Source: Wenjunlia vitaminophila DSM 41686 | Lineage (GTDB): Bacteria > Actinomycetota > Actinomycetes > Streptomycetales > Streptomycetaceae | Direction: 5' to 3' | Length of the DNA stretch: 64,000 nucleotides | Assembly (NCBI RefSeq): GCF_000380165.1 | Contig: NZ_KB904735.1 | Span: 25,683-89,682, forward strand | Part shown: positions 6,948 to 51,972 of the stretch, in pieces | How the letters are laid out: every line of letters begins with the position of its first letter | How positions within the stretch are numbered: the stretch's first letter is position 1 | Made by a program: the position numbers and the translations under genes | Notes under the pieces: generated by a model | What the model saw: only the letters and a program-made list of their open reading frames with translations | What the model was told of the DNA's origin: nothing | Databases searched by the model: none

Positions 6948-7616
6948 ATGGAGTTGATCGCGCGCGGGCGGGACGCTGACGTGTATGCCCTGGACGAGTC
7001 CCGGGTGTTGCGGCGTTATCGGCGGGAGGGGCCGACGGAGCAGGAAGCGCGGTTGATGTCACACCTGGCGGCCTGCGGGTATCCCGTGCCGAAGGTGTAC
7101 GAGGTGACCCGTACCGACATGGTCCTGGAACGGCTGACCGGGCCGACGATGCTGGAGGTGCTGTCCCGGCGCCCGTGGCGGGTCGGCTCCCTCGGTCGGA
7201 CGTTGGGCCGCCTGCACGACCGGTTGCACGCGTTGCCGGCACCGAAGTGGCTGCCGCAGCGGTTCGCGACGCCGGGTGACGACCGGGTGCTGCACCTGGA
7301 TCTGCACCCGGGCAACGTGATGCTGACCCGGCGGGGCCCCGTGGTGATCGACTGGCGCAACGCGGGCGCTGGTGATCCCGCTGCGGACGTGGCGATGACC
7401 ATGGTGACCGTCGGTGGCGCGGACGTCCCCGGACTGGCCGTCCGCCTGGGGCGGAGCCTGCTTGTGCACAGCGTGCGCAGGGGCTGTCGGACCGATCCCG
7501 CGGGACGTATCGGGGAAGTGGTCGAAGCCAAGCTGGCCGACCCGAACCTCACGCCCGCGGAGGCGGCGTGGCTGCGGCGTCGCGCCGGCGGCCGGACCGG
7601 GAAGCCGGACTGCTGA
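6948..7616 (+). CDS. Small APH-family phosphotransferase
   Basis: The protein has 222 residues and a compact aminoglycoside-phosphotransferase/choline-kinase fold: the catalytic loop HLDLHPGN is at 116-123 and the metal-binding IDWRN at 134-138. It is short for the family (about 300) because the C-terminal lobe is reduced, but both key motifs are intact. The ATG at 6948 is preferred over upstream in-frame starts because the coding signal and the conserved start (MELIARGRDADVYAL) begin there, and CAGACT six bases upstream could be a -10 for a leaderless message. The substrate is unknown. Confidence 0.75.
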   Translation: MELIARGRDADVYALDESRVLRRYRREGPTEQEARLMSHLAACGYPVPKVYEVTRTDMVLERLTGPTMLEVLSRRPWRVGSLGRTLGRLHDRLHALPAPKWLPQRFATPGDDRVLHLDLHPGNVMLTRRGPVVIDWRNAGAGDPAADVAMTMVTVGGADVPGLAVRLGRSLLVHSVRRGCRTDPAGRIGEVVEAKLADPNLTPAEAAWLRRRAGGRTGKPDC

Positions 7617-7763
7617 TCGGTGGCCAGGGCGTGCGTTCGTGGGGTCGGTGAACGCCTCCCGGCCCCACCGGATCGGGGCCCGGTCCACCGCCCTGCGCCA
7701 CCACGGCCCCCGACGGCCCGGCCACCGGGCGAACGTCGCCTGGTGCGGCACTAGGCTGGGCCG

Positions 7764-8591
7764 ATGCTGACCGAGGTGACGGCGACCCGCTATGTCACGC
7801 CCCTGCGCGAGGGCGGATCGCTCCCCGGCATCGTCGAGGCCGATGACCTGGGGACCTATGTGATGAAGTTCGTCGGCGCCGGGCAGGGCCGCAAGGCCCT
7901 GGTGGCGGAGGTGATCGCGGGGGAGCTGGCGCGACGGCTGGGGCTGCGGGTGCCGGACCTGGTGCGCATCCAGCTCGACCCGGTGATCGGCCTCGGCGAA
8001 CCCGACCAGGAGGTGCAGGAGCTGCTGAAGGCCAGCGGCGGCCTCAACCTGGGCATGGACTACCTCCCGGGTTCCCTCGGCTTCGACCCGCTGGCCTTCC
8101 AGGTCGACCCGGCCGAGGCCGGGCGGGTGATCTGGTTCGACGGCCTGGTGGGCAACGTGGACCGCTCCTGGCGCAACCCCAACCTGCTGGTCTGGCACGG
8201 TGACCTGTGGCTGATCGACCACGGCGCCACCCTGATCTGGCACCACAACTGGCCCACCGCCCCCGCCTCCGCGGCCAGGCCGTACGCCGCGGACGACCAC
8301 GCGCTCGCCACGTTCTCCCCGGATCTCGACCACGCCGAGGCCACGCTCTCCCCGCTGGTCACCGAGGAACTGCTGCGCGAGGTGGTGGCGCTGGTCCCGG
8401 ACGAGTGGCTGGCCGACGAGCCCGGGTTCACCACCCCGGACGCCGTCCGCGACGCCTACGTGGCCAGGCTCCTGGACCGGCACCGCGCCCGGGACCAGTG
8501 GCGGCCCCGCATCCCGACCGACCTCTCCCAGGCCCCGAGGACGCCGCGCGCCAGCAACGCGCCGGAATGGCTGAAGGGATCGACACGCTGA
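7764..8591 (+). CDS. HipA_2-like kinase-fold protein
   Basis: The 275-residue protein resembles the HipA_2 group of HipA-related kinases: NVDRSWRNPN at 131-140 matches the catalytic loop and LIDHG at 150-154 the metal-binding motif. It lacks the N-terminal extension of classical HipA toxins and no HipB-type antitoxin is nearby. TAGGCT (7752-7757) ends six bases before the ATG, suggesting a leaderless mRNA. Its stop overlaps the ATG of the DUF3037 gene (TGATG), so the two are translated together. Phosphorylation of a protein or small molecule is plausible; the target is unknown. Confidence 0.75.
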   Translation: MLTEVTATRYVTPLREGGSLPGIVEADDLGTYVMKFVGAGQGRKALVAEVIAGELARRLGLRVPDLVRIQLDPVIGLGEPDQEVQELLKASGGLNLGMDYLPGSLGFDPLAFQVDPAEAGRVIWFDGLVGNVDRSWRNPNLLVWHGDLWLIDHGATLIWHHNWPTAPASAARPYAADDHALATFSPDLDHAEATLSPLVTEELLREVVALVPDEWLADEPGFTTPDAVRDAYVARLLDRHRARDQWRPRIPTDLSQAPRTPRASNAPEWLKGSTR

Positions 8592-8974
8592 TGGCCGAGC
8601 GCCACGTCTTCGAGTACGCGTTGCTGCGGGTCGTGCCGCGGGTGGAACGCGGCGAACTGATCAACGCCGGGGTACTGGTCTACTGCCGGGCGAGGAGCTT
8701 CGTCGCCGCCCGCACCCACCTGGACGAACAACGCCTGCGCTGCCTCGACCCCGCGGTGGACGTGGCCGCGGTGCGGGCGGCGCTGTGCGGGGTGGAGGGC
8801 GTCTGCCACGGGGGTCCCGAGGCGGGCAGGGCCGCCGATGACGAACCGGGCCGGAGGTTCCGCTGGCTCACCGCGCCGCGCAGCACCGTGGTCCAGCCCG
8901 GCCCCGTGCACACCGGCCTGACCACCGACCCACGGGCCGAGGTCGAACGGCTCCTGGACCTCCTGGTGCGCTGA
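8591..8974 (+). CDS. DUF3037 protein, partner of the HipA_2-like kinase
   Basis: This 127-residue protein starts MAERHVFEYALLRVVPRVERG and contains the LINAGVLVYC segment typical of DUF3037. No catalytic motif is evident. Its start codon overlaps the stop of the HipA_2-like gene by one base, so the two products are probably made in fixed ratio. From memory this pairing recurs in other bacteria, which would suggest that DUF3037 is the substrate, regulator or antidote of the kinase; this is not established by the sequence here. Confidence 0.75.
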   Translation: MAERHVFEYALLRVVPRVERGELINAGVLVYCRARSFVAARTHLDEQRLRCLDPAVDVAAVRAALCGVEGVCHGGPEAGRAADDEPGRRFRWLTAPRSTVVQPGPVHTGLTTDPRAEVERLLDLLVR

Positions 8975-8981
8975 CACCTCC

Positions 8982-9024
8982 ACCCCGGCCGGGGCCGGCC
9001 GCCACGGTCGGCTCCGGCCGGGGT
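8982..9024. terminator. Hairpin terminator after the HipA_2/DUF3037 operon
   Basis: ACCCCGGCCGG (8982-8992) and CCGGCCGGGGT (9014-9024) are perfect 11-bp inverted repeats 21 bp apart, just past the DUF3037 stop. There is no T-run, as usual for high-GC actinomycetes. It separates convergent genes. Confidence 0.55.
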
Positions 9025-9201
9025 CTTCCGAACCGGGTGTCTCCGCTTCCCCGTTGCGCAACCGCCGGACCTCCACGGACTTCCGGCGCCGCCGGCCGCG
9101 AATTCCCCGGGGAACTGTTTTCCGTGAATCCACGGGAATTCGAGGAAGCCGTCCGGAGAATCGGGAAAGTGCTGGAGGGCGTGACGGCGTCCGTTTCACC
9201 G

Positions 9202-9819
9202 TCAGGGGCGCTGGACCGCGATGCCGTTGAGGAACATCTCCGCCAGGCCCTCCCCGATCTGTCGGGGGCGCAGCGCCCCGTCGGAGCGGTACCAGGTGCC
9301 GAGGTGGTGCACGGCGCCGAAGAAGTGGTGGGTCGCCAGGTCGGGGCTGATGTCGGCGCGCACGGAACCCTCCCGCTGCCCCTCCGCCACCAACGCCCGG
9401 AACCGCTCGTGGTACCGCCGTCGCTCCGCCCGCACCTGCGCCCTGATGTGCGGGGCGAGCAGGTGCAGGGAGTGCATCAGCACCACGCCGTCGTCCAGGT
9501 GCGCCAGGGTGCTCACCACCACGTCGGCCGTGGCCTCACGCAGCCGCTGCGCCGCGGTGCCGGGACCGTCGGCGATCCGCTCCAGCGACCTGGTCTGGAG
9601 GCCGAGGAGCCGGCGGTAGATCTCCCGGATCAGGTCGTCCTTGGACGAGAAGTAGTGGTACATCGCGCCCTTGGTGACCCCCGCGGCGTCCACGATCTCC
9701 TGGACCGAGGTCCGTTCGAAACCCTGGGCGGCGAACAGCCGGGTGGCGACGGCGAGCAGCCGGTCGGGCACCGGGGCGCCGTCCGCCGCGCCGCGCCCGG
9801 ACGTGCGCGTGGTCACCAT
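9202..9819 (-). CDS. TetR/AcrR-family regulator of the adjacent lipid cluster
   Basis: The 205-residue protein has an N-terminal TetR helix-turn-helix (about residues 20-65: LLAVATRLFAAQGFERTSV, IVDAAGVTKGAMYHYFSSK) followed by a helical ligand domain. The ATG at 9819 has GGAGG eight bases upstream and is preferred to a longer in-frame start at 9942, which would swallow an operator-like site. It faces away from the phosphotransferase/acyl-CoA dehydrogenase/SDR genes, and three copies of an ACCNACTGGTA motif lie in the shared 285-bp region. It probably represses both sides and responds to an acyl-CoA-like ligand (inference). Confidence 0.85.
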   Translation of the reverse strand: MVTTRTSGRGAADGAPVPDRLLAVATRLFAAQGFERTSVQEIVDAAGVTKGAMYHYFSSKDDLIREIYRRLLGLQTRSLERIADGPGTAAQRLREATADVVVSTLAHLDDGVVLMHSLHLLAPHIRAQVRAERRRYHERFRALVAEGQREGSVRADISPDLATHHFFGAVHHLGTWYRSDGALRPRQIGEGLAEMFLNGIAVQRP

Positions 9820-9880
9820 GTGGCTCGCCTCCTCCACCGCCGGGCGGGGGTCGGCGACGTCCTGCCGGCCCGAAACGCAA

Positions 9881-10025
9881 CATACCAGTGGGTCGGTCAC
9901 CGTTGAAGGGTGCGGAAAACGGCCCGACGGTGGCGTTGACACCCGCCCTCGATGCTCCTACGGTTTCCGCTGTCGTCACATTACCGACTGGTAGTTCGGT
10001 GCGTGACATACCAGTTGGTCGGTCG
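9881..10025. promoter_or_regulatory. Three TetR operator-like sites (ACCNACTGGTA)
   Basis: CATACCAGTGGGTCGGTC (9881-9898) and CATACCAGTTGGTCGGTC (10007-10024) differ at one base. A third, shorter copy in the other orientation, ACCGACTGGTA, is at 9983-9993. All share the core ACCNACTGGTA or its complement. They lie between tetR and the phosphotransferase gene, one near each gene, as expected for autoregulation plus control of the cluster. Confidence 0.6.
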
Positions 10026-10104
10026 CGTGCACCTCGCGGCGCAGGGTCCGGAGAACGTCGCCGACGACGGGCGTCGCGCCCGAGGGGCGCGGGAGAGGTC
10101 GCTG

Positions 10105-11151
10105 ATGGAGTCACCCGAGGCGAAGGGCCTGCCGGGCCTCGACCTGGACGCGTTGGGCACCTGGCTGAACACCGAGCACCCAGGGTTCCTCGAGGGACCG
10201 CTCCGCGGCGAAGTGATCTCGGGAGGCAGGTCGAACCTCACGTACGCGATCGGCGACGGCACCCACCGCTGGGTGCTGCGCCGGCCACCCCTGGGACACG
10301 TACTGGCCACCGCCCACGACATGGGCCGCGAGTACCGGGTGATCTCGGCGCTGGCCCACACCCCGGTCCCCGTGCCCACCACCCACCTGCTCTGCCAGGA
10401 CCCCGGGGTCATCGGGGCGCCCTTCTACCTCATGGAACACGTCCCCGGTCAGGTGCTGCGGAACGCGGGCCAGACCGCCCGGCTCGGCCGGGACCGGGCG
10501 TGTGGGCTCGCCGAGCACCTGGTGGACGTGCTCGCCGTGCTCCACGGCGTCGATCCCCACGAGGTGGACCTCGCCGACTTCGGACGCCCCGACGGGTACC
10601 TGCACCGGCAGGTGGTGCGCTGGGGCAAGCAGTTGGCGGCGTCGCGCAGCCGGGAGACCCCGGACCTCGACGCCCTCCGGGAGGAACTGCTGGACCGCGT
10701 GCCGAGCAGCCAGCGCTCCGGCATCGTCCACGGCGACTACCGGCTGGACAACGTGGTGGTCGGCGACGACGACCGCATCAACGCCGTGCTGGACTGGGAG
10801 ATGGCCACGCTCGGTGACCCGCTCGCCGACCTCGGGCTGTTCCTGGTCTACTGGGACGTCATCCGCGAGCTGGTGCCGGACAACCCGGTGGCCGCGGGCG
10901 TCAGCGACGCCGCAGGCTTCCCTCCCGGGCACCGCCTGGTGTCCCGGTACGCCCGGTTGACCGGCCTGGACCTGGACCCGCTGCCCTGGTACGTCTCCCT
11001 GGGCTGCTTCAAGCTGGCGGTGGTCGCCGAAGGCATCCACTTCCGCTACCTGCGGGGGCTGACGGTGGGGGAGGGGTTCGAGCGGATCGGGGCCATGGCC
11101 GCGCCGCTGGCGTCCCGGGGCCGCGCCGTCCTCGCCGCGAAGGACCACTGA
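10105..11151 (+). CDS. Phosphotransferase family protein (ACAD10/11-type APH domain)
   Basis: This 348-residue protein belongs to the APH-like group that accompanies acyl-CoA dehydrogenases: SGGRSNLTYAI in the N-lobe, IVHGDYRLDN as catalytic loop and VLDWEMATLGDPLADL as the metal-binding motif. In animals the corresponding domain of ACAD10/11 phosphorylates 4-hydroxyacyl-CoA so that the dehydrogenase partner can take it into beta-oxidation. The ATG at 10105 follows GGAGAGG; a longer frame from 9952 would read through operator sites. It begins a run of co-directional fatty-acid-type genes. Confidence 0.85.
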   Translation: MESPEAKGLPGLDLDALGTWLNTEHPGFLEGPLRGEVISGGRSNLTYAIGDGTHRWVLRRPPLGHVLATAHDMGREYRVISALAHTPVPVPTTHLLCQDPGVIGAPFYLMEHVPGQVLRNAGQTARLGRDRACGLAEHLVDVLAVLHGVDPHEVDLADFGRPDGYLHRQVVRWGKQLAASRSRETPDLDALREELLDRVPSSQRSGIVHGDYRLDNVVVGDDDRINAVLDWEMATLGDPLADLGLFLVYWDVIRELVPDNPVAAGVSDAAGFPPGHRLVSRYARLTGLDLDPLPWYVSLGCFKLAVVAEGIHFRYLRGLTVGEGFERIGAMAAPLASRGRAVLAAKDH

Positions 11152-11190
11152 CCCGTTCGAGTCACAGGCTCCCCCCAGAAGGGTCCGCTC

Positions 11191-12426
11191 ATGGAGTTCG
11201 CACCCGACGCCCGCACCGAGGAACTGGCCGAGCGCCTGCACGCGTTCATGGAGGAGCACGTCTACCCGGCGGAACCGGTCTTCGCCGAGCAGGTGGCCGA
11301 GGCCCGGCGCCTGGGCGGGGGCTGGTCGCGCCCGCCCGTGACCGGGGAGCTGAAGGCCCGGGCGCGCGCCCTCGGACTGTGGAACCTGTTCTTCACCGGC
11401 TCGCGGGGTCCGGACGAGCCGCACGGCGCCGGCCTCAGCAACCTGCAGTACGCTCCGCTGGCCGAGATCACCGGCCGCAGTCCCGCGCTCGCCCCGGAGG
11501 CGCTGAACTGCGCGGCCCCGGACACCGGCAACATGGACCTGCTGGCGGAGTTCGGCACCCCGCAGCAACGCGAGCGCTGGCTGCGGCCCCTGCTGGAGGG
11601 GGAGATCCGCTCCGCGTTCTGCATGACCGAACCCGACGTCGCCTCCTCGGACGCCACGAACATCACCACCCGGATCGACCGGGACGGCGACGAGTACGTG
11701 GTCAACGGCCGCAAGTGGTGGTCGTCGGGAGCGATGGACCCGAACTGCGCGCTCCTCATCGTGATGGGCAGGACCGACCCGGACGCGGAGCGGCACCGTC
11801 AGCAGTCCATGGTCCTGGTGCCGCGGGACACCCCCGGGGTGTCCGTGCGCCGCCCGCTGACGGTGATGGGCTATGACGACGGCCCGCACGGCGGGCACGC
11901 GGAGGTGGAGTTCACCGACGTCCGGGTGGGCGCGGACCAGCTCATCGGCGAGCCCGGGTCCGGCTTCGCCATCGCCCAGGCACGACTCGGCCCCGGTCGC
12001 GTCCACCACTGCATGCGGTTGATCGGGATGGCCGAGAGGGCCCTCGAACTGATGTGCCGTCGGGTGATCGACCGGGTCGCCTTCGGGGGACCGCTCGCCC
12101 GACAGGGGGTGATCCAGGAGTGGATCGCCGAGTCCCGGGTGCGGATCGAGCAGGCCAGGCTACTTGTGCTGAAGACGGCGTGGCTGATGGACACGGTGGG
12201 CAACCGGGGGGCCCACACCGAGATCCAGGCCATCAAGATCGTGACACCACTGATGGCCGAATGGGTCATCGACAAGTCGATCCAGGCCCACGGCGCGGCG
12301 GGGCTGTCCCAGGACTTCCCCCTCGCCCACCTCTGGGCGAGCGCCCGCACCCTGCGGCTCGCGGACGGTCCGGACGAGGTGCACCGCAGGTCCCTGGCCC
12401 GCCGTGAGCTGAGCAGATACCGCTGA
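11191..12426 (+). CDS. Acyl-CoA dehydrogenase (ACAD10/11-like)
   Basis: The 411-residue protein has the acyl-CoA dehydrogenase fold: an N-terminal helical domain, the FAD-contacting beta domain with [16 protein letters not shown] (about residues 145-160) and GRKWWSSGA, and a C-terminal four-helix domain with [21 protein letters not shown]. It would introduce a C2-C3 double bond in an acyl-CoA. It lies 39 bp after the APH-like gene, the usual partner in processing 4-hydroxy acids, so both probably serve the same beta-oxidation route. Confidence 0.9.
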
Positions 12427-12605
12427 CCCACCGAACCCGTCGGGACGACACCCGCGCTTCCGCCGCGGCCGACCGTCACGGCACCCGACACGTCCGGGGC
12501 CCGCAAGGTAGCGAACCCCGGCCCGCGGAGCACGATCCACGGAACCCGAACCACCACCGCGGTCCGCCGGTACGGCGAGGACCACGCAAACGAGGAGGCA
12601 CACCG

Positions 12606-13370
12606 ATGTCCAGCACCGAGCAGCAGCGCGTCGCCATCGTCACCGGGGGCGCCCGGGGTATCGGCGCGGCGACCGCCGAGCGGTTGGCCGCCGACGGCCG
12701 TGCCGTCGCCGTCCTCGACCTCGACGAGGGCGCCTGCGCCGAGGTCGTGGAGAAGATCACCGCCGGGGGCGGCCGGGCCATGGGCGTGGGCGCCGACGTC
12801 TCGGACGCCGAGCAGGTCACCGCCGCCGTGGCGCGCGTCGCCGAGGAGCTCGGCCCGCCCACCGTCCTGGTCAACAACGCCGGGGTGCTCCGGGACAACC
12901 TGCTGTTCAAGATGACCGAGTCGGACTGGGACACCGTCCTCGACGTCCACCTCAAGGGCGCGTTCCTGATGACGCGCGCCACCCAGAAGCACATGGTGGA
13001 CGCCGGGTTCGGCCGGATCGTCAACCTGTCGAGCAGCTCGGCGCTCGGCAACCGGGGACAGGCGAACTACGCCGCGGCCAAGGCCGGGATGCAGGGCTTC
13101 ACCAAGACCCTCGCCATCGAGCTGGGCAAGTTCGGGATCACCGCCAACGCCGTGGCTCCCGGGTTCATCGTGACCGACATGACCGCGGCCACCGCCGAGC
13201 GGATGCGGATGACCTTCGAGGAGTTCCAGAAGCTCGCCGCCTCACAGATCCCCGTCCAGCGGGTCGGCCGCCCCGAGGACGTGGCGAACACCATCGCGTT
13301 CCTCGCCGGCGACGCGGCCGGGTTCGTCTCCGGCCAGGTGGTCTACGTGGCCGGCGGTCCCCTCGACTAA
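12606..13370 (+). CDS. SDR oxidoreductase, FabG-like 3-ketoacyl reductase
   Basis: The 254-residue classical SDR has the cofactor motif TGGARGIG near residue 14, NNAG near 95, the catalytic NLSSSS / YAAAK pair and VAPGFIVTDM. It is about the usual length of FabG and ends in GGPLD. It probably interconverts 3-hydroxyacyl and 3-ketoacyl thioesters in the same pathway as the preceding acyl-CoA dehydrogenase. ACGAGGAGG lies just before the ATG. The 179 bp upstream show no other gene. Confidence 0.87.
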   Translation: MSSTEQQRVAIVTGGARGIGAATAERLAADGRAVAVLDLDEGACAEVVEKITAGGGRAMGVGADVSDAEQVTAAVARVAEELGPPTVLVNNAGVLRDNLLFKMTESDWDTVLDVHLKGAFLMTRATQKHMVDAGFGRIVNLSSSSALGNRGQANYAAAKAGMQGFTKTLAIELGKFGITANAVAPGFIVTDMTAATAERMRMTFEEFQKLAASQIPVQRVGRPEDVANTIAFLAGDAAGFVSGQVVYVAGGPLD

Positions 13371-13433
13371 GGACTGTCCCGAGCCGCCCGTCCGCGTCCG
13401 TTCGTCCGCCCGAGCCCCGTGGAGTCGTGCCGC

Positions 13434-14258
13434 ATGAGCCCACACAGCGAGCAGTCCCGTCCGGAACCCCGACCGGACCCCGTCACCTCCCGGGCCCCCG
13501 GCGGTCCCCCCGACGGCGGGCGCGTGGCGCTGGTCACCGGGGCCAGTCGGGGCATCGGCCTCGGTGTCGCACGGGCCCTGGTCGCCAGGGGCGACCGGGT
13601 GTGTGTCACCGGCCGGAACGAGGAGGCGCTCGCCGCCGCGGTGGAGCAGCTCGGCGGGCCCGGGCGGGCCATGGGGGTCGCCGGCAAGGCCCACGACCAG
13701 GCCCACCAGGCGGAGGTCGTGGACCGGGTCCTCGAGGCGTACGGCAGGCTGGACTACCTGGTCAACAACGCGGGCACCAACCCGGCGGCGGTGCCGCTGG
13801 CGGAGGCGGACCTCCGGCTGGCCCACAAGGTCTTCGAGACCAACGTGCTGTCGGCGCTCGGCCTCGCCCAGCAGGCGCACCGGGCGTGGCAGCGCGAGCA
13901 CGGGGGCGCGATCGTCAACGTCGCCTCGGTGTCCGGTCTCGGCGCCTCGCCGTTCCTCGGCATGTACGGCATGAGCAAGGCCGCCATGATCAACCTCACT
14001 CAGCAGCTCGCCCACGAGCTCGCGCCGCGGGTCCGGGTCAACGCCGTGGCCCCGGCGGTGGTCAAGACCCGGTTCGCCGCGATGCTCTGGGAGGGGCGGG
14101 AGCAGGAGGTGTCGGGCGCCTACCCGATGGGCCGGCTCGGGGTGCCGCAGGACGTGGCCGGAGCCGTGGCGTTCCTGCTCTCCGACGAGGCCGGCTGGAT
14201 CACCGGGCAGACCCTGGTGATCGACGGTGGGCTGCTGCTGAGCGCGGGGGTGTCATGA
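13434..14258 (+). CDS. SDR family oxidoreductase
   Basis: The 274-residue SDR carries TGASRGIG (about residues 34-41), NNAGTNP, ASVSGLG and YGMSKAAM with the catalytic Ser-Tyr-Lys set, and ends with a GG-containing loop. The first 25 residues form a Pro-rich tail ahead of the Rossmann fold. The ATG at 13434 has GGAG nine bases upstream; a GTG at 13419 is possible. The last four bases overlap the next SDR start (ATGA). It is likely a 3-hydroxyacyl-CoA or alcohol dehydrogenase of the TetR-controlled cluster. Confidence 0.85.
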   Translation: MSPHSEQSRPEPRPDPVTSRAPGGPPDGGRVALVTGASRGIGLGVARALVARGDRVCVTGRNEEALAAAVEQLGGPGRAMGVAGKAHDQAHQAEVVDRVLEAYGRLDYLVNNAGTNPAAVPLAEADLRLAHKVFETNVLSALGLAQQAHRAWQREHGGAIVNVASVSGLGASPFLGMYGMSKAAMINLTQQLAHELAPRVRVNAVAPAVVKTRFAAMLWEGREQEVSGAYPMGRLGVPQDVAGAVAFLLSDEAGWITGQTLVIDGGLLLSAGVS

Positions 14259-15034
14259 GCTTCGCCCTGCCCGGCGCGGGGGTGGTCGTCACCGGTGCCG
14301 GGCACGGGATCGGGGCCGCCCTCGCCCGGAGGTTCGCCGCCGAGGGCGCGAACGTGGTGGTCAACGACGTGGACGGCGAGGCCGCCGGCGAGGTGGCCGG
14401 CGAGATCGGCGGCACCGCCGCGCCGGGTGACGCCGCGACTCCGGACGGGGTCGCCGCCCTGATCGACACCGCCCGTTCCGCGCTGGGCGCGATCGACCTG
14501 TACTGCGCCAACGCCGGAGTGGGCACCGGCGGGAGCGAGCAGGCCGACGACGCGGACTGGGAGCTGACCTGGCAGGTCAACGTCATGGCGCACGTGCGGG
14601 CGGCCCGGCTGCTCGTCCCACACTGGCTGGACCGCGGAAGGGGCCGCTGGCTGAGCACCGTCTCCGCCGCGGGACTGCTCACCATGCTGGGCGCCGCCCC
14701 GTACACGGTGTCCAAGCACGCCGCGCTGTCGTTCGCCGAGTGGCTGTCGGCGACCTACGGACACCGCGGGATCACCGTCCAGGCACTGTGTCCCGCGGGG
14801 GTGCGCACCCGGATGCTGGACGGCACCGGCGCCGCCGGGGACCTGCTGCTCGCCGCGAGCGCGGTCGAACCAGAACGGGTGGCGGACAGTGTGGTCGATG
14901 CCTTCGGCGACGACCGCTTCCTGGTGCTGCCCCACCCCGACACGGCGCGGATGTACCAGGGGCGGGCCCAGGACACCGACCGGTGGCTGAGCGGCATGAA
15001 CCGCCTCCAGGGGCAGCTCGACGCGATGGGGTGA
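14255..15034 (+). CDS. SDR family oxidoreductase
   Basis: The 259-residue protein shows TGAGHGIG near residue 13, NAGVG, STVSAAG and YTVSKHAAL, so all catalytic residues of a classical SDR are present. Its C-terminal third (PHPDTARMYQGRAQDTDRWL) is typical of the SDR group often seen next to acyl-CoA dehydrogenases. It overlaps the preceding SDR gene by four bases and so is translationally coupled to it. Substrate not determined. Confidence 0.85.
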   Translation: MSFALPGAGVVVTGAGHGIGAALARRFAAEGANVVVNDVDGEAAGEVAGEIGGTAAPGDAATPDGVAALIDTARSALGAIDLYCANAGVGTGGSEQADDADWELTWQVNVMAHVRAARLLVPHWLDRGRGRWLSTVSAAGLLTMLGAAPYTVSKHAALSFAEWLSATYGHRGITVQALCPAGVRTRMLDGTGAAGDLLLAASAVEPERVADSVVDAFGDDRFLVLPHPDTARMYQGRAQDTDRWLSGMNRLQGQLDAMG

Positions 15035-15125: not shown

Positions 15126-15806
15126 GTGTCCTACACCCTGCCCGAGTCCTGGTTGTCCGTCCTCGGGGAAGAGGTGTCCAAGCCGTACTTCAAGGAGCTC
15201 ACCGAGTTCGTCGAGCAGGAGCGGGAACAGCACCCGGTCTACCCGCCCCGCGAGCAGGTGTTCGCAGCCCTGGAGGCCACGCCGTTCGACCAGGTCAAGG
15301 TGCTGGTACTGGGCCAGGACCCGTACCACGGGGCAGGTCAGGGGCACGGGTTGTGCTTCTCCGTGCTGCCCGGGGTGAAGACCCCGCCGAGCCTGCGCAA
15401 CATCTTCAAGGAGATGCGGGAGGAGCTCGGCCACCCCGTCCCGGACAACGGCTACCTGATGCCCTGGGCCCAGCAGGGGGTGCTGCTGCTCAACGCCGTG
15501 CTGACGGTGCGCGAGGCCCAGCCCAACTCGCACAAGAACCAGGGCTGGGAGAAGTTCACCGACGCGGTGATCCAGGCCGTGGCCAACCGCCCCCAGCCGG
15601 CGGTGTTCGTGCTGTGGGGGGCCTACGCGAAGAAGAAGCTGCGCCTGATCGACACCGAGCGGCACGCCGTGGTGCAGGGCGCCCACCCGTCGCCGCTGTC
15701 CGCCAAGTTGTTCTTCGGCAGCCGCCCGTTCACCCAGATAAACGAGGCCCTGGACGCCCAGGGCCACCAGCCGATCGACTGGCGCCTGCCCGACCTGGCC
15801 CAGTAG
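15126..15806 (+). CDS. ung: Uracil-DNA glycosylase
   Basis: The 226-residue protein is a family 1 uracil-DNA glycosylase. GQDPYHG at 63-69 contains the water-activating Asp65, LLLNAVLTV supplies the uracil-specific Asn, and GAHPSPLSA places catalytic His187 before the DNA-intercalating loop. Family length is about 225. It excises uracil arising from cytosine deamination, a frequent lesion in DNA of this composition. GGAGGT precedes the GTG start. It is alone in its transcription unit. Confidence 0.96.
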   Translation: MSYTLPESWLSVLGEEVSKPYFKELTEFVEQEREQHPVYPPREQVFAALEATPFDQVKVLVLGQDPYHGAGQGHGLCFSVLPGVKTPPSLRNIFKEMREELGHPVPDNGYLMPWAQQGVLLLNAVLTVREAQPNSHKNQGWEKFTDAVIQAVANRPQPAVFVLWGAYAKKKLRLIDTERHAVVQGAHPSPLSAKLFFGSRPFTQINEALDAQGHQPIDWRLPDLAQ

Positions 15807-15927
15807 TTCGCGCGCGCCCGCCGCCCGGGAGCGACGCACCTCGTCGGCCCGGTTCACCGGCTCGACGCCGCGGCGGGTCCAGACTGGGGACCGACACTCG
15901 TCGTGACGAGGAAGGAACCCTGAGCTG

Positions 15928-17484
15928 ATGACGGCACGTCGGGCCCTGTTGGTGGCGTTGGCCGGAGCCCTGCCGGCACTCGCCTTCCCTGAGCCGTCGC
16001 TGTGGTGGTTGGCCTTCGGTGCCCTGGTGCCGTGGATGTTGCTGGTCCGACGGGCGCCGCACGGACGCTGTGCGGCGCTGGACGGGTGGATCGGCGGCAC
16101 CGGCTTCATGCTCGCCGTCCACCACTGGCTGCTGCCGAACCTGCTGGTGTTCACTCCGGTCGTCGCGGCGTTCCTGGGGCTGCTGTGGGCGCCGTGGGGA
16201 TGGCTGGTGTGGCGGCTGCTGCGCGGGGAGCCGGCGGGCTGGCGGGCCGCCGCGGCGGTGGTGCTGGTGCCCAGCGCGTGGCTGATGGCCGAGCTGGTGC
16301 GCTCCTGGCAGTACCTGGGCGGTCCGTGGGCGCTGATCGGCGCCAGCCAGTGGCAGGTGCGCCCGGCGCTGGACCTGGCCTCGGTGGGCGGCATCTGGCT
16401 GGTGAGCTGGTTGGTGGTGGCCGCCAACGCGGGGGTGGCGACGTTGGCTGCGCTGGGCCGGGGCCGGAAGCCCGCGGTGGCGGTGCTCCTGGCGCTCGCG
16501 GCGGGGTGCGGCGCGGTGTGGACCTGGGCGCCCCAGCCGGAGCAGGGCGGGTCGGTGCGGGTGGCGGTGGTGCAGCCGGGCGTGGTGCGCGGGCCCGAGC
16601 TGCGCTTCGACACCGCCGAGCGGCTGACCCGTCAGCTCGCCGGGCGGCGGGTGGACCTGGTGGTGTGGGGGGAGAGCAGCGTCGGGTTCGACCTGGACGA
16701 GCGGCCCGACCTGTCCCGGCGGCTGGCCGCGCTGTCCCGGCTGGTCGGCGCCGACCTGCTGGTCAACGTGGACGCCCGCCGGGCGGACGGGAAGGGCATC
16801 TACAAGACGGCGGTGCTGGTCGGTCCGGGCGGACCGACCGGGCAGCGCTACGACAAGACCCGCCTGGTGCCGTTCGGGGAGTACGTTCCGCTGCGCCCGG
16901 TCCTGGGGTGGGTGACCGGCATGAGCGAGGCGGCGGCGGAGAACCGCCGCCGGGGGCGGGGCCCGGTGCTGATGGACACCGCTGGCGTGCGGCTGGGGCC
17001 GCTGGTCTGCTTCGAGTCGGCGTTCCCGGACATGAGCAGGGCCCTGGCCGGGCGCGGGGCCCAGCTCCTGGTGGTCCAGTCCGCGACCTCCACGTTCCAG
17101 GGGAGCTGGGCGCCCGAGCAGCACGCCTCACTGGCCGCGATCCGGGCGGCGGAGACCTGGCGCCCGGTGGTGCACGCCACGCTCACCGGGGCCAGTGCCG
17201 TCGCGGACGCCCGGGGGCGGCAGGTCGGGCAGTGGTTGGGCACCAGCGAGCGGACGGCCGAGGTCTTCCAGGTTCCGCTGGCCTCGGGCACCAGTCCCTA
17301 CGTGCGGTTCGGTCCCTGGGTGCCGTGGCTGGCGGCGGGTCTTCTGGGGGTCGCGGCGCTCGCGGCGGCGGCTCGCCGGCTGCGCGGCGGCGGTGCCTTC
17401 CCCGGTGGTCGCCCCGGGGCCGCGGCCCGTCCGGAGCTGGCCGAGAACGACCGGCTCAGCGGTGCCGGCCCTCAGCGGCCCTGA
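15928..17484 (+). CDS. lnt: Apolipoprotein N-acyltransferase
   Basis: The 518-residue membrane protein has an N-terminal block of about six helices (residues 1-200), a carbon-nitrogen-hydrolase domain facing outside, and a last helix near 455-475. The nitrilase triad is visible: Glu249 in WGESS, Lys310 in YDKTRLVPFGEYVP and Cys361 in VCFES. Lnt transfers a third acyl chain onto the N-terminal cysteine of lipoproteins. AGGAAGGAACC is 10 bases upstream of the ATG. Its last 29 bases overlap the convergent Gfo/Idh gene. Confidence 0.93.
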   Translation: MTARRALLVALAGALPALAFPEPSLWWLAFGALVPWMLLVRRAPHGRCAALDGWIGGTGFMLAVHHWLLPNLLVFTPVVAAFLGLLWAPWGWLVWRLLRGEPAGWRAAAAVVLVPSAWLMAELVRSWQYLGGPWALIGASQWQVRPALDLASVGGIWLVSWLVVAANAGVATLAALGRGRKPAVAVLLALAAGCGAVWTWAPQPEQGGSVRVAVVQPGVVRGPELRFDTAERLTRQLAGRRVDLVVWGESSVGFDLDERPDLSRRLAALSRLVGADLLVNVDARRADGKGIYKTAVLVGPGGPTGQRYDKTRLVPFGEYVPLRPVLGWVTGMSEAAAENRRRGRGPVLMDTAGVRLGPLVCFESAFPDMSRALAGRGAQLLVVQSATSTFQGSWAPEQHASLAAIRAAETWRPVVHATLTGASAVADARGRQVGQWLGTSERTAEVFQVPLASGTSPYVRFGPWVPWLAAGLLGVAALAAAARRLRGGGAFPGGRPGAAARPELAENDRLSGAGPQRP

Positions 17485-43220: not shown

Positions 43221-44813
43221 TCAGCCCGGGCCGCTGCCCGCCACGCGGGCCGACTCGAGCGCCGTCGCGACGTCCCGCGGGTAGGTGCGCAGGGCGAGGA
43301 GGGAGACCAGACCCGCGGCGAACAGGGCGACGAGGCCCAGGTGGAAGGTGGTCTCGAGGCCGCCGGTGCCACCACGCCCGGTGAACACCTGGGAGGAGAG
43401 CGCCCCGAAGAGCAGGGGGCCCACGAACTCCCCCGACGTGCGCACGAATGTCCGGGTGCCCTCCGACCGGCCCCAGAGGCCCGGGGGGACGATGTCCAAC
43501 CGGGCCGCGTCCAGCGGCGGGTTGGCGGCGGCGAGCAGCGCGCCGCCGAGCGCGAGCAACGGCACCGCGAGGACCGGTGACCCGGTGGTGAGCCCGGGGG
43601 CGAAGGCCAGTGGTGCGGTGAGCAGCACCACGGCGGGGACCAGCACCCGGCCGTTGGCCCGGCCCCGCCACAGCGCCCAGTCCGGTGCCCTGGCGCCGAG
43701 CAGCAGGCCCGCCAGGACACCGACGCCGATCAGGAGTGTCATGGCGCCGGCCGTGAAGCGGCCCACCCCGTAGTGGTGGATGACGTAGAACAGGGCGAAG
43801 GTGCGCAGACCGGCGAAGAAGAAGTAGGCGAGGGTCGAGGCCACGATCATCAACACGACGGTGCGGATGCGCAGCACGTAGACGAACGCGCGCCAGGCCG
43901 GCATGCACGCCGGGTCCTCGTGGAGCACCCGGCCCGGGTACGGTTGCGCGGCGGGGCCCCCGGCAGTGCCCCGGACCGGCTCCGGCGCCACCCCCGCGCC
44001 CCGGGCGACCTCCTCGGACCGGGCGACCTCCTCGGACCGGTCGGGCTGGTGTTTGACGCCGCCCCCGCCGGAGGGGATGTGGCGCAGACCCGGACGGAGC
44101 CAGTCTCCGCCGCTCCTCGGGGGTTCGGGTACGCGCCACAGCACCCAGGCGAGGAACGCCCCCGGAAACGCCAGCCAGGCGAAGGAGTAGCGCCAGGTCA
44201 GGAGCGCCGTGACGGTGTTCGACAGCACATAGCCGGCCCCGGTGCCCAGCACCTCCCCGGCCAGGACGTACCCGTACAACCGGGCACGCTCGGCGGCGGG
44301 GAAGCAGTCGCCCATGAGCGAGGCCACGGCGGGCGCGGCAGTCGCCGTCACGGCACCCAGGGCGACACGCGACAGCAGCAGCCACAGGTACGAGCCGGAC
44401 GCGCCGGCGAGCAGGGTGGCGGCCGACCAGAGCACCACGCTCACCGCGAGCAGCCGGGTCCGGGCGATCCGGTCGACCAGCACGCCGGCGGGCAGCGTGC
44501 ACAGCGCCCCGGTCAGGGAGGTGAGGGAGATCAGCAGCCCGATGTCGGTGTGCCCCACCTGGAAGGCGTTCTCGATGTCCCCGGCGTTGACCGAGACGGT
44601 GGCCTTGTCCGCCCCGTCCAGCCCGATCACGGCGCTCAGCAACGCGATCACCTTCAGCCGGGCACGACCGCCCACCGCGGCGTCCGCCCGGCGCCCCACG
44701 GCTCCGGTGGCACGTCGCGGAGCCGAACGCAGGACGCCCCTCACGGGCCGCGTCTGCCGCCCGGCGCGGCCCCGGACCGGGGGCGTCGCCCGACGTGGGT
44801 GGCCAGGTCGCAC
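43221..44813 (-). CDS. MFS transporter
   Basis: The protein (up to 530 residues) has about twelve membrane helices, with the MFS loop LVDRIARTRLL after helix 2 and a long hydrophilic central loop (residues 250-310) containing the duplicated SEEVARSEEVAR. The start is uncertain: a GTG at 44744 would remove 23 Arg-rich residues, and the first helix begins only near residue 53. The substrate cannot be inferred. It is divergent from the radical SAM gene, with 231 bp between. Confidence 0.8.
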   Translation of the reverse strand: MRPGHPRRATPPVRGRAGRQTRPVRGVLRSAPRRATGAVGRRADAAVGGRARLKVIALLSAVIGLDGADKATVSVNAGDIENAFQVGHTDIGLLISLTSLTGALCTLPAGVLVDRIARTRLLAVSVVLWSAATLLAGASGSYLWLLLSRVALGAVTATAAPAVASLMGDCFPAAERARLYGYVLAGEVLGTGAGYVLSNTVTALLTWRYSFAWLAFPGAFLAWVLWRVPEPPRSGGDWLRPGLRHIPSGGGGVKHQPDRSEEVARSEEVARGAGVAPEPVRGTAGGPAAQPYPGRVLHEDPACMPAWRAFVYVLRIRTVVLMIVASTLAYFFFAGLRTFALFYVIHHYGVGRFTAGAMTLLIGVGVLAGLLLGARAPDWALWRGRANGRVLVPAVVLLTAPLAFAPGLTTGSPVLAVPLLALGGALLAAANPPLDAARLDIVPPGLWGRSEGTRTFVRTSGEFVGPLLFGALSSQVFTGRGGTGGLETTFHLGLVALFAAGLVSLLALRTYPRDVATALESARVAGSGPG

Positions 44814-45044
44814 ACGAGCACGTCAACCGGATGCCCCGCTGCCAGCTTCCGCATTCCGCCCGGGCGCGGTATTAGCCCGGCGGGTGGCGGGGGGACGACG
44901 AGACGGAGGGCTCGGGCGTCCCTGTTGGGCCATCAGGTCGATGGTGAACCCCCGAGGGGTGGTCGTGACCCTCGTGGCGTTACCCCGACGCGTTCTCCGG
45001 ACACAGGTGATGATCACACCGTTGTTCCTGGCTGGAGTTCGCGT

Positions 45045-46556
45045 ATGCGCCTGCTGCTGGTCCATCCGAGTGCCCTGATGTACTCGGAGATCTTCCTCCG
45101 GCTCGAGCCCCTCGGGCTGGAGCGCGTGGCCGGTGCCGCCCGCGACGCGGGCCACGAGGTCCGTGTCCTCGACCTGCAGACGGAACCCCCCGCCGCGCTC
45201 GCACGGGCCGTCGCCTCCTTCCGCCCCGAGGCGGTCGGTGTCTCGCTCAACTACCTGGCGAACATCCCCGAGGCCATCGGGATCGCCCAGCAGGCCAAAC
45301 GGATCGTGCCCGGCGCCTTCGTCTTCTTCGGCGGCCACAGCGTCTCCTTCGTCGCGGACGAGGTGCTCGAACAGGCCGACGGCGCCGTCGACGCGGTCGT
45401 CCGGGGCGAGGGCGAGACCGCCGTGGGCCCCCTCCTCGAGGCCGCCGCCGACGGTGACGTTACGGCAGCGCCTGGGGTGGTGACCCGTGAGGGCCGCGGC
45501 CCAGCCCCGCGGATGCTGCACAGCATCGACTCGCCCCGCCCCGCGCGTGACCTGCTGCGACACCGGCGCCGCTACTTCATCGGGGAACTCGACCCGTGCG
45601 CCTCCATCGAGTTCACCCGGGGCTGCCCCTGGGACTGCTCCTTCTGCTCGGCGTGGACGTTCTACGGGCGCAGCTACCGCAAGGCGTCACCGGACGCGGC
45701 AGCCGAGGAGATGGCGAGCATCCGCGAGCGGAACGTGTTCATCGTGGACGACGTCGCCTTCATCCGCCCCGAGCACGGCGACGCCATCGCCGCCGAACTG
45801 GAACGCCGCCGCATCCGCAAGAGGTACTACCTGGAGACCCGGGCCGACGTCCTGCTGCGCAACACGGAGGTGTTCGAACGCTGGCACCGGCTGGGTCTGA
45901 AGTACATGTTCCTGGGGATGGAGGCCATCGACGCCGAGGGCCTCGACCTGTACCGCAAGCGGATCAGCCCGGACGAGAACTTCCGCGCCCTGCGGACGGC
46001 CCGCAGGCTGGGCATCACGGTCGCGATCAACCTGATCGTCGATCCCTCCTGGGACGAGGAGCGTTTCCGCGTCGTGCGGGAGTTCGCGCTGTCCGTGCCG
46101 GAGATCGTCCACCTGACCGTGATGACCCCCTACCCCGGCACCGAGGTCTGGCACACCGAGTCGCGCCGGCTCACCACCCGCGACTACCGGCTCTTCGACA
46201 TCCAGCACGCCGTCGTTCCCACCACCCTCCCGCTCGACCTCTTCTACCGCGAACTGGTCCGCACCCAGGCCGTGATCAACCGCAAACACCTCGGCCTGCG
46301 CACGGCGCTGGGCGCGGCCCGCGTCCTCGGCGGCAACCTCGTCCGCGGCCAGACCAACTTCGCCCGCATGCTGTGGCGCTTCAACGACGTCTACAACCCG
46401 CGAAGGCAACTCGCCGACCACAGCCGCCCTGTGCGGTACGAACTGCCGCTGCCCCGGCCCCTCGACGTCGGCGACCGACGCCAGCTCTACGTCCACACCA
46501 GGCCCGCTCCCCGCGGCACCGCCGCGGCCCGACGCGACCAGCAGCCCTCCGGGTAG
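45045..46556 (+). CDS. hpnR: Hopanoid C-3 methylase-like B12-binding radical SAM enzyme
   Basis: The 503-residue protein has an N-terminal cobalamin-binding domain (MRLLLVHPSALMYSEIF, residues 1-140), then a radical SAM domain with the cluster cysteines Cys194, Cys198 and Cys201 in CPWDCSFC, and a C-terminal extension. The opening, length and domain order match HpnR, which methylates hopanoids at C-3 using SAM and methylcobalamin. Other radical SAM methylases are possible. GGAG lies before the ATG. No other hopanoid gene is in the window. Confidence 0.75.
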   Translation: MRLLLVHPSALMYSEIFLRLEPLGLERVAGAARDAGHEVRVLDLQTEPPAALARAVASFRPEAVGVSLNYLANIPEAIGIAQQAKRIVPGAFVFFGGHSVSFVADEVLEQADGAVDAVVRGEGETAVGPLLEAAADGDVTAAPGVVTREGRGPAPRMLHSIDSPRPARDLLRHRRRYFIGELDPCASIEFTRGCPWDCSFCSAWTFYGRSYRKASPDAAAEEMASIRERNVFIVDDVAFIRPEHGDAIAAELERRRIRKRYYLETRADVLLRNTEVFERWHRLGLKYMFLGMEAIDAEGLDLYRKRISPDENFRALRTARRLGITVAINLIVDPSWDEERFRVVREFALSVPEIVHLTVMTPYPGTEVWHTESRRLTTRDYRLFDIQHAVVPTTLPLDLFYRELVRTQAVINRKHLGLRTALGAARVLGGNLVRGQTNFARMLWRFNDVYNPRRQLADHSRPVRYELPLPRPLDVGDRRQLYVHTRPAPRGTAAARRDQQPSG

Positions 46557-50741: not shown

Positions 50742-50919
50742 GGCCTGTCTGATAAATCCCGCCTGGGTCGTGACGCCTGGCACGCACGCTCGCTGTCGTT
50801 GTCGGGATCGTCCATGTACGCCCAGTACGAGGACGACCCTCCGCCTTGCGATCGCACGCACCAGACGCCGCGACCCCCGCCCTCCGGGCGGACTGCGCCA
50901 CTCATCAGACAGGCCCTAG
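50738..50919. repeat. MITE-like element, complete copy
   Basis: A 182-bp element begins and ends with the inverted repeat CTAGGGCCTGTCTGAT. The flanking CTAG on both sides fits a 4-bp CTAG (YTAR) target duplication, as made by some IS5-family transposases; the family is inference. It has no coding capacity. It is about 95 % alike, in reverse orientation, to the copy at 61661-61841, so both moved fairly recently. It carries the stop codon of the subtilase gene at one edge and received an IS481 insertion at the other. Confidence 0.8.
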
Positions 50920-51884
50920 CTGTATTGACCTGAAGCGTTGTTCGCGCGGCTGATTGGTGGGTGGCCGCCGAGTGCGGTGTGGCAACGGTGGTGGTTGTAG
51001 TTGTGCAGGAAGTCTGTCAGGGCGGCGGTTCGTTCGTCGTTGCTCGCGTAGGGTCGCAGGTAGGCCCACTCCTCCAGCAGGGTGCGGTTGAAGCGTTCGA
51101 CCTTGCCGTTGGTCTGTGGCCGGTAGGCCCGGGTGAGCTTGCCGGCCGCGCCGAGGTCGGCGAGCGCCTGCCGCCAGGCGAAGCTTTTGCGGTAGGGCCA
51201 GGCATTATCTGTCAGGACACGCTCGATGCGTGCAACGCCGCAGGTGGCGAAGAAGGCCGCGGCACGGGTCAGGAAGCCCGCACAGGTGGCGGCCTTCTCG
51301 TCTGGGTGAACCTCGCTGTAGGCGAGGCGGCTGTGGTCGTCCACAGCGGAGTGGATGTAGTCGAAGCCAGTGGTGCGGCGGCGGTCGGGGCAGGCGGCAC
51401 GGCCGTGGACGCGCCAGCCTCCGCCGTCGGGAATGCGGCCCAGTTTCTTGACGTCCACGTGGAGGAGTTCGCCGGGTCGGCCGCGTTCATAGCGGCGGAT
51501 GACCTGGCCGGTGGGCCGGTCCAGGAAGGACAGGCGGTTCAGGCCGTGCCGGGCCAGGACCCGGTGGACGGTGGAGACAGGCAGGCCCAGGATCGGCCCG
51601 ATGCGGGCCGGGCCCAGCTTGCGCTCTCGCCGAAGGCGACAGACCTGTTCCTCCACTGCTGCCGGCGTCCGGTGCGGCGTGCTGTGAGGTCGGCTGGGAC
51701 GGTCATGCAGGCCGGCTTCGCCCTCTGCCCGCCAACGACGCAGCCACTTGTGAGCCGTGGGCCGCGAGATGCCCATCTCAGCCGCCACGTGCGCGACAGG
51801 ACGGCCGGAACGAACACGCTCGACCAACAGCCGCCTGCCGTGAACAGTCAGCCGGGCATTACGGTGGGACACGAAGACCTCCAT
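50916..51884 (-). CDS. IS481-family transposase
   Basis: The 322-residue protein has two N-terminal helix-turn-helix segments (HVAAEMGISRPTAHKWLRR; LGLPVSTVHRVLARHG) and an rve integrase core. The catalytic Asp (LHVDVKK), Asp (VLTDNAWPY) and Glu (GKVERFNRT) are all present, so the enzyme should be active. The ATG at 51884 is preferred to one 30 bases upstream. The stop TAG is not in the element: it is the CTAG of the target site, so the frame closes at the junction with the host DNA. Confidence 0.93.
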   Translation of the reverse strand: MEVFVSHRNARLTVHGRRLLVERVRSGRPVAHVAAEMGISRPTAHKWLRRWRAEGEAGLHDRPSRPHSTPHRTPAAVEEQVCRLRRERKLGPARIGPILGLPVSTVHRVLARHGLNRLSFLDRPTGQVIRRYERGRPGELLHVDVKKLGRIPDGGGWRVHGRAACPDRRRTTGFDYIHSAVDDHSRLAYSEVHPDEKAATCAGFLTRAAAFFATCGVARIERVLTDNAWPYRKSFAWRQALADLGAAGKLTRAYRPQTNGKVERFNRTLLEEWAYLRPYASNDERTAALTDFLHNYNHHRCHTALGGHPPISRANNASGQYS

Positions 51885-51972
51885 GTGGTGCGTTCCTAGA
51901 CAGCTCCACCACATCGGAGGTCTTCACCATGATCAAGTCCGACAGGCGTTAACAACGCTCATGACCAATACA
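50921..51972. mobile_element. IS481-family insertion sequence, complete
   Basis: Imperfect terminal repeats TGTATTGACCTGAAGCGTTGTT (left, 22 bp, split here as TGTATTGACC and TGAAGCGTTGTT) and its partner starting TGTATTGGTC at the right end match at 17 of 22 positions. CCTAGC flanks both ends (50915-50920 and 51973-51978): a 6-bp target duplication with the NCTAGN core known for IS481. The 1052-bp element contains one intact transposase gene on the minus strand. It inserted in the CTAG at the right edge of the 50738-50919 element. Confidence 0.88.

Follow-up and report, generated by a model that had tools for sequence, protein, structure and literature searches.

A probable hopanoid C-3 methylase gene, hpnR, in Wenjunlia vitaminophila, a streptomycete that seems to have lost cobalamin synthesis genes

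The gene at positions 45045-46556 of the 64-kb stretch of DNA analysed here (the window) most probably encodes an HpnR orthologue. Such an enzyme is a radical SAM methylase dependent on cobalamin, and it would methylate the host's own hopanoids at C-3 of ring A. Judging from sequence comparisons, we give this reading a probability of about 0.85. The gene is an ordinary member of an already known group, as the occurrence of hpnR in some Streptomyces has been on record since 2012. The only unexpected detail is the apparent loss of cobalamin synthesis genes by the host, in which C-3 methylation would be conditional on the supply of B12.

The hpnR reading frame is open from an ATG at 45045 to a stop codon at 46554-46556 in the open reading frame list, and an upstream GTG at 43773 gives a longer frame that encloses it. 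The ATG was preferred as the start because residue 1 of the TIGR04367 profile aligns with it and because a GGAG lies 7 bases upstream. The features of the gene are as follows.

45034-45037, + strand: GGAG, 7 bases ahead of the hpnR start codon, a possible ribosome-binding site
45045-46556, + strand: hpnR, hopanoid C-3 methylase, 503 aa plus stop (TIGR04367, 859.2 bits; cut-off, 650)
45096-45425, + strand: B12-binding domain, residues 18-127 (PF02310, 1.4e-24)
45606-46085, + strand: radical SAM core, residues 188-347 (PF04055, 5.1e-20)
45624-45647, + strand: CxxxCxxC motif CPWDCSFC, residues 194-201 (from the alignment), which we take to be the ligand of the 4Fe-4S cluster

The NCBIfam equivalog TIGR04367 (hopanoid C-3 methylase HpnR) matched residues 1-485 with an E value of 7.5e-259 and was the sole family above its own cut-off, the 22 other listed families being below theirs. 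The runner-up, BchE (TIGR02026), scored 146.7 bits against a cut-off of 481.35, and HpnJ (TIGR03471) scored 74.5 bits against 577.6. Such families have both of the domains listed above and score weakly, which could be taken to mean that the name HpnR is a wrong label for BchE, HpnJ, a natural-product methylase or the like, i.e., for a different radical SAM enzyme dependent on B12. We consider the likelihood of such an error negligible, given that TIGR04367 alone passed its cut-off and that the HpnR-like paralogues of the family, at 33-34% identity, fall far outside the HpnRs in the tree described below. The identification as HpnR made in the earlier note is thus upheld by the profile score, the conserved residues and the tree placement. 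Among solved structures, only remote matches were obtained, to TokK, an apramycin enzyme and one unnamed radical SAM protein.

The HpnR-like paralogues are found at locus L081 (G006 C1) and at the related loci L080 (G336) and L082 (G221). Within ~9 kb, L081 encodes an AMP-binding enzyme and three proteins that each combine a B12-binding with a radical SAM domain, and a search there detected no hopanoid genes.

Comparison with 61 other HpnRs, comprising 37 from Streptomycetaceae and 24 from proteobacteria (Kozakia and 23 of the best 80 loci), revealed that the window HpnR retains the conserved residue at all 178 invariant columns. It also matches 208 of the 257 columns that show no variation when the 24 proteobacterial rows are taken by themselves. 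The dN/dS ratios were 0.17-0.30 against 7 of the 37 family HpnRs. Judged by these comparisons, hpnR is an intact gene on which purifying selection has acted. The GC content by codon position was 0.72/0.48/0.93, with a GC3 resembling that of the MFS, S9 and TM_HPP neighbours; a foreign origin was therefore dropped, composition giving no sign of recent import. An IS481-type transposase gene is present at 50916-51914 (- strand) of the window, the plasmid copies listed for it being ~79-83% identical at the DNA level.

Standing alone is usual for hpnR. HpnC, HpnD, HpnE, HpnG, HpnH, SHC and prenyl-diphosphate synthase were absent from the 64-kb window in a tblastn search with the genome's own proteins (E<=1e-5), so that the description of the gene as isolated, with no other hopanoid gene present, was right for the window. 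Hopanoid genes were found beside hpnR at none of 38 streptomycete loci (the window and 37 others; up to 6 kb on each side, less at contig ends). They were likewise found at none of 80 proteobacterial loci (up to 6 kb on each side, some much shorter), in a search that used streptomycete proteins as queries and had no positive control of sensitivity. Crude gene calls around the 38 streptomycete loci were also clustered in a search for shared neighbours. One family recurring in 12 loci was YceI-like by reading, and another recurring in 10 was carboxylase-like by reading. No functional partner emerged, the called neighbours in the window matching none of the 37 other loci.

The host genome (6.43 Mb, 111 contigs, 99.2% complete) carries a hopanoid cluster on a contig other than that of hpnR, within positions 534-9271 of C46 and running towards the contig end. 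Its members are as follows.

C46 cluster: SHC, 799 bits, above the cut-off
C46 cluster: HpnH, 535 bits, above the cut-off
C46 cluster: HpnE, 448 bits, above the cut-off
C46 cluster: HpnC, 330 bits, above the cut-off
C46 cluster: HpnD, 294 bits, above the cut-off
C46 cluster: HpnG, weak match, 68 bits, below the cut-off of 187.1
C46 cluster: prenyl-diphosphate synthase

The host thus has hopanoid-making genes (SHC, HpnC, HpnD, HpnE and HpnH), its capacity to make hopanoids being predicted here from genes. The earlier note had proposed a search for squalene-hopene cyclase elsewhere in the genome and had allowed for the case of a genome with no hopanoid pathway; the search located both the cyclase and the pathway on C46. 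The doubt that the note expressed about the lipid substrate is thereby largely settled at the level of genes, with bacteriohopanepolyols as the presumptive substrate.

A second SHC-type cyclase is encoded at C46:222691-224520 (471 bits; cut-off, 431.1). Its neighbours (L041:8665-17899) encode a flavin-monooxygenase-like protein, a UbiA prenyltransferase, a methyltransferase, a luciferase-like monooxygenase, a tryptophan 2,3-dioxygenase and a DUF6875 protein, and the region is possibly an unstudied terpenoid cluster. The window protein could conceivably be a descendant of HpnR that now acts on another terpenoid, such as the product of this second cyclase, since this cyclase exists, with the first three of the neighbours just listed beside it, and hpnR is genetically linked to neither cyclase. 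We regard this as very unlikely, because the protein shows zero deviations at the 178 invariant HpnR positions and because a second cyclase is not needed: 11 of the 38 hpnR-positive genomes show only one SHC-type match among the best three candidates scored per genome, which makes the ordinary hopanoid the shared candidate substrate.

TIGR04367 was above its cut-off in 38 of 394 genomes in the family sample of Streptomycetaceae (17 genera), in one of the two genomes of the genus and in 2 of 396 genomes in the phylum sample, both from Streptomycetaceae. The host lies within this family, in keeping with the actinomycete assignment of the earlier note, and of the 56 plasmid records matched by positions 39001-64000 of the window, most were from Streptomyces (40), with 3 from Kitasatospora. 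SHC was above its cut-off in 380 of the 394 family genomes, i.e., in 38/38 hpnR carriers and 342/356 others. Since SHC is nearly universal in the family, its co-occurrence with hpnR carries no information, and we dropped it as evidence for hpnR function. Partial hpnR matches below the cut-off were detected in G067 C35, G008 C11, G034 C16 and G341 C1. These may be decaying copies and, if so, would indicate losses besides transfers in the history of the family. The suggestion that the window gene extends the list of potential sources of 3-methylhopanoids is not supported: according to PMC5462960, Welander and Summons (2012) had already reported hpnR from Actinobacteria, in which 8 of 43 Streptomyces genomes carried it and all carried shc. 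The window strain is one more carrier in a known, patchy set of Streptomycetaceae. Our literature search, which missed most subscription papers and makes no claim of absence from print, returned no paper in which 3-methylhopanoids had been measured in a streptomycete. This additional carrier provides a further reason against reading 3-methylhopanes as proof of methanotrophs.

HpnR should need methylcobalamin, and its expected mechanism is that of class B radical SAM methylases. The hopanoid substrate would be supplied by SHC, HpnC, HpnD, HpnE and HpnH, whose genes lie on another contig. The CxxxCxxC-bound 4Fe-4S cluster would cleave SAM, the resulting 5'-deoxyadenosyl radical would take a hydrogen from C-3 of the hopanoid, and methylcobalamin on the N-terminal domain would donate the methyl group. 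The cobalamin cofactor would come from uptake.

CobQ was above its cut-off in 48 of the 49 genomes searched (all 38 hpnR carriers, the window genome being one, together with the genus-mate G001 and ten genomes lacking an over-cut-off hpnR), three of the 48 passing only with neighbouring pieces in frame. The sole failure was the window genome, with a best score of 20.5 bits. A CobN profile search, performed on the window genome only, gave no match; these two profiles are the firm tests of cobalamin gene absence. In G001, a stretch of C2 (L214) contains a cobalamin riboswitch, CobQ, a putative cobaltochelatase subunit, the adenosyltransferase CobA/CobO, CobB and CobC. We compared 20 kb of this DNA with the window genome, scoring 40 of 1294 candidates. 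Matches to the flanks of the stretch lie within contig C44 with their order preserved, and there 7.9 kb of the query (7036-14897) is replaced by ~750 bases and a further 1.4 kb (15206-16588) is also missing, the corresponding sites being C44:9277-10022 and 10331-10547 (L230). A CbiX-type gene remains between the two missing segments. An assembly gap was rejected as the cause, the flanks being in order inside a single contig with no N bases at that site. Thus, the window strain seems to have lost cobalamin synthesis genes and to be unable to make its own cobalamin.

Users of the cofactor are retained. MetH (B12-dependent) scored 1434 bits in the window genome against a cut-off of 1010.85, the C-terminal domain of methylmalonyl-CoA mutase is kept, and five B12-binding domains, including that of HpnR, are above the cut-off. 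Two loci share a membrane protein (53% identical), one of them also encoding an SCO2321-family protein and ECF/CbiO-type ATPases. We read both as putative ECF transport loci; both have cobalamin riboswitch matches, at 26.0 and 24.3 bits, below the gathering score of 31.5. With CobQ, CobN and the cobalamin gene stretch missing, the window strain probably obtains the cofactor by uptake, as we infer from these data, and its C-3 methylation is probably dependent on this import. A strong cobalamin riboswitch match (86 bits) is present elsewhere, at C38:38207-38434 (L212, L169), just upstream of a gene for a 144-aa 4HBT thioesterase-like protein, an odd partner for such a riboswitch.

Carrying hpnR is no guarantee of a 3-methylhopanoid product. 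Four hpnR carriers, including Gluconacetobacter diazotrophicus and Gluconobacter oxydans, formed no 3-methylhopanoids as grown, according to PMC12583986. The window gene might similarly encode a genuine HpnR that stays silent or is short of its cofactor, with no 3-methylhopanoid made in nature, as the missing CobQ and CobN and the hint of gene decay given by the hpnR fragments in four other genomes would allow. This is improbable in view of the purifying selection on hpnR and of the other B12 enzymes, whose retention implies that cobalamin presumably reaches the cell. We therefore retain an active C-3 methylase as the preferred reading. As an extension of it, and a rather doubtful one, HpnR may have stayed under selection after cobalamin synthesis was lost, C-3 methylation being switched by cobalamin from neighbouring microbes. 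If true, 3-methylhopanoids from such bacteria would record the B12 supply of the soil community, not methane oxidation.

The relationship to other HpnRs was analysed with a quick maximum-likelihood tree of 65 rows: the window, the 37 family HpnRs, Kozakia, 23 of the best 80 proteobacterial loci and, as the outgroup, three HpnR-like paralogues. The best 80 were drawn from 354 relatives and were all Acetobacteraceae or Burkholderiaceae by title, Methylococcus capsulatus and named streptomycetes lying outside the sample. All 62 HpnRs were on one side of a branch with an SH-aLRT support of 100. Acetobacteraceae (96) and Burkholderiaceae (98) each formed one group. Streptomycete rows fell on both sides of these groups and were not recovered as a single clade, because the very distant outgroup does not fix the root. 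In this tree, which is without M. capsulatus, the window HpnR groups with those of lipid-verified species, Acetobacter pasteurianus and Kozakia being among the rows; the phylogeny that the earlier note had called for thus places it with Acetobacteraceae HpnRs, two of them from documented producer species. The nearest row was the HpnR of G006 (86% identity).

Among known systems, the founding member is the HpnR of M. capsulatus (MCA0738), which is outside the sequence comparison made here; its gene is required for C-3 methylation, as stated in PMC5462960. Among hpnR carriers, both A. pasteurianus and Kozakia baliensis are producers of 3-methyl BHPs, and HpnR methylated BHPs, not C30 hopanoids, in the species studied (PMC12583986). 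The window HpnR is 56% identical to that of A. pasteurianus LMG 1262 (L111) and 58% identical to that encoded by a K. baliensis plasmid (L084), over 503 aligned columns in both cases, the sequenced strains not necessarily being the producing ones. Identity was 57% with G. oxydans, 59% with G. diazotrophicus and 60% with Paraburkholderia xenovorans. The Acetobacteraceae HpnRs belong to another phylum and are separated by a long branch (0.99 changes per column). The HpnRs of the 37 other Streptomycetaceae genomes are 77-86% identical to the window protein, with the same domains and motif, and their genes likewise have no adjoining hopanoid genes. The window genome differs from these 37 in the neighbours of hpnR, common to none of their loci, and in CobQ, which is above the cut-off in every one of them and not in the window genome.
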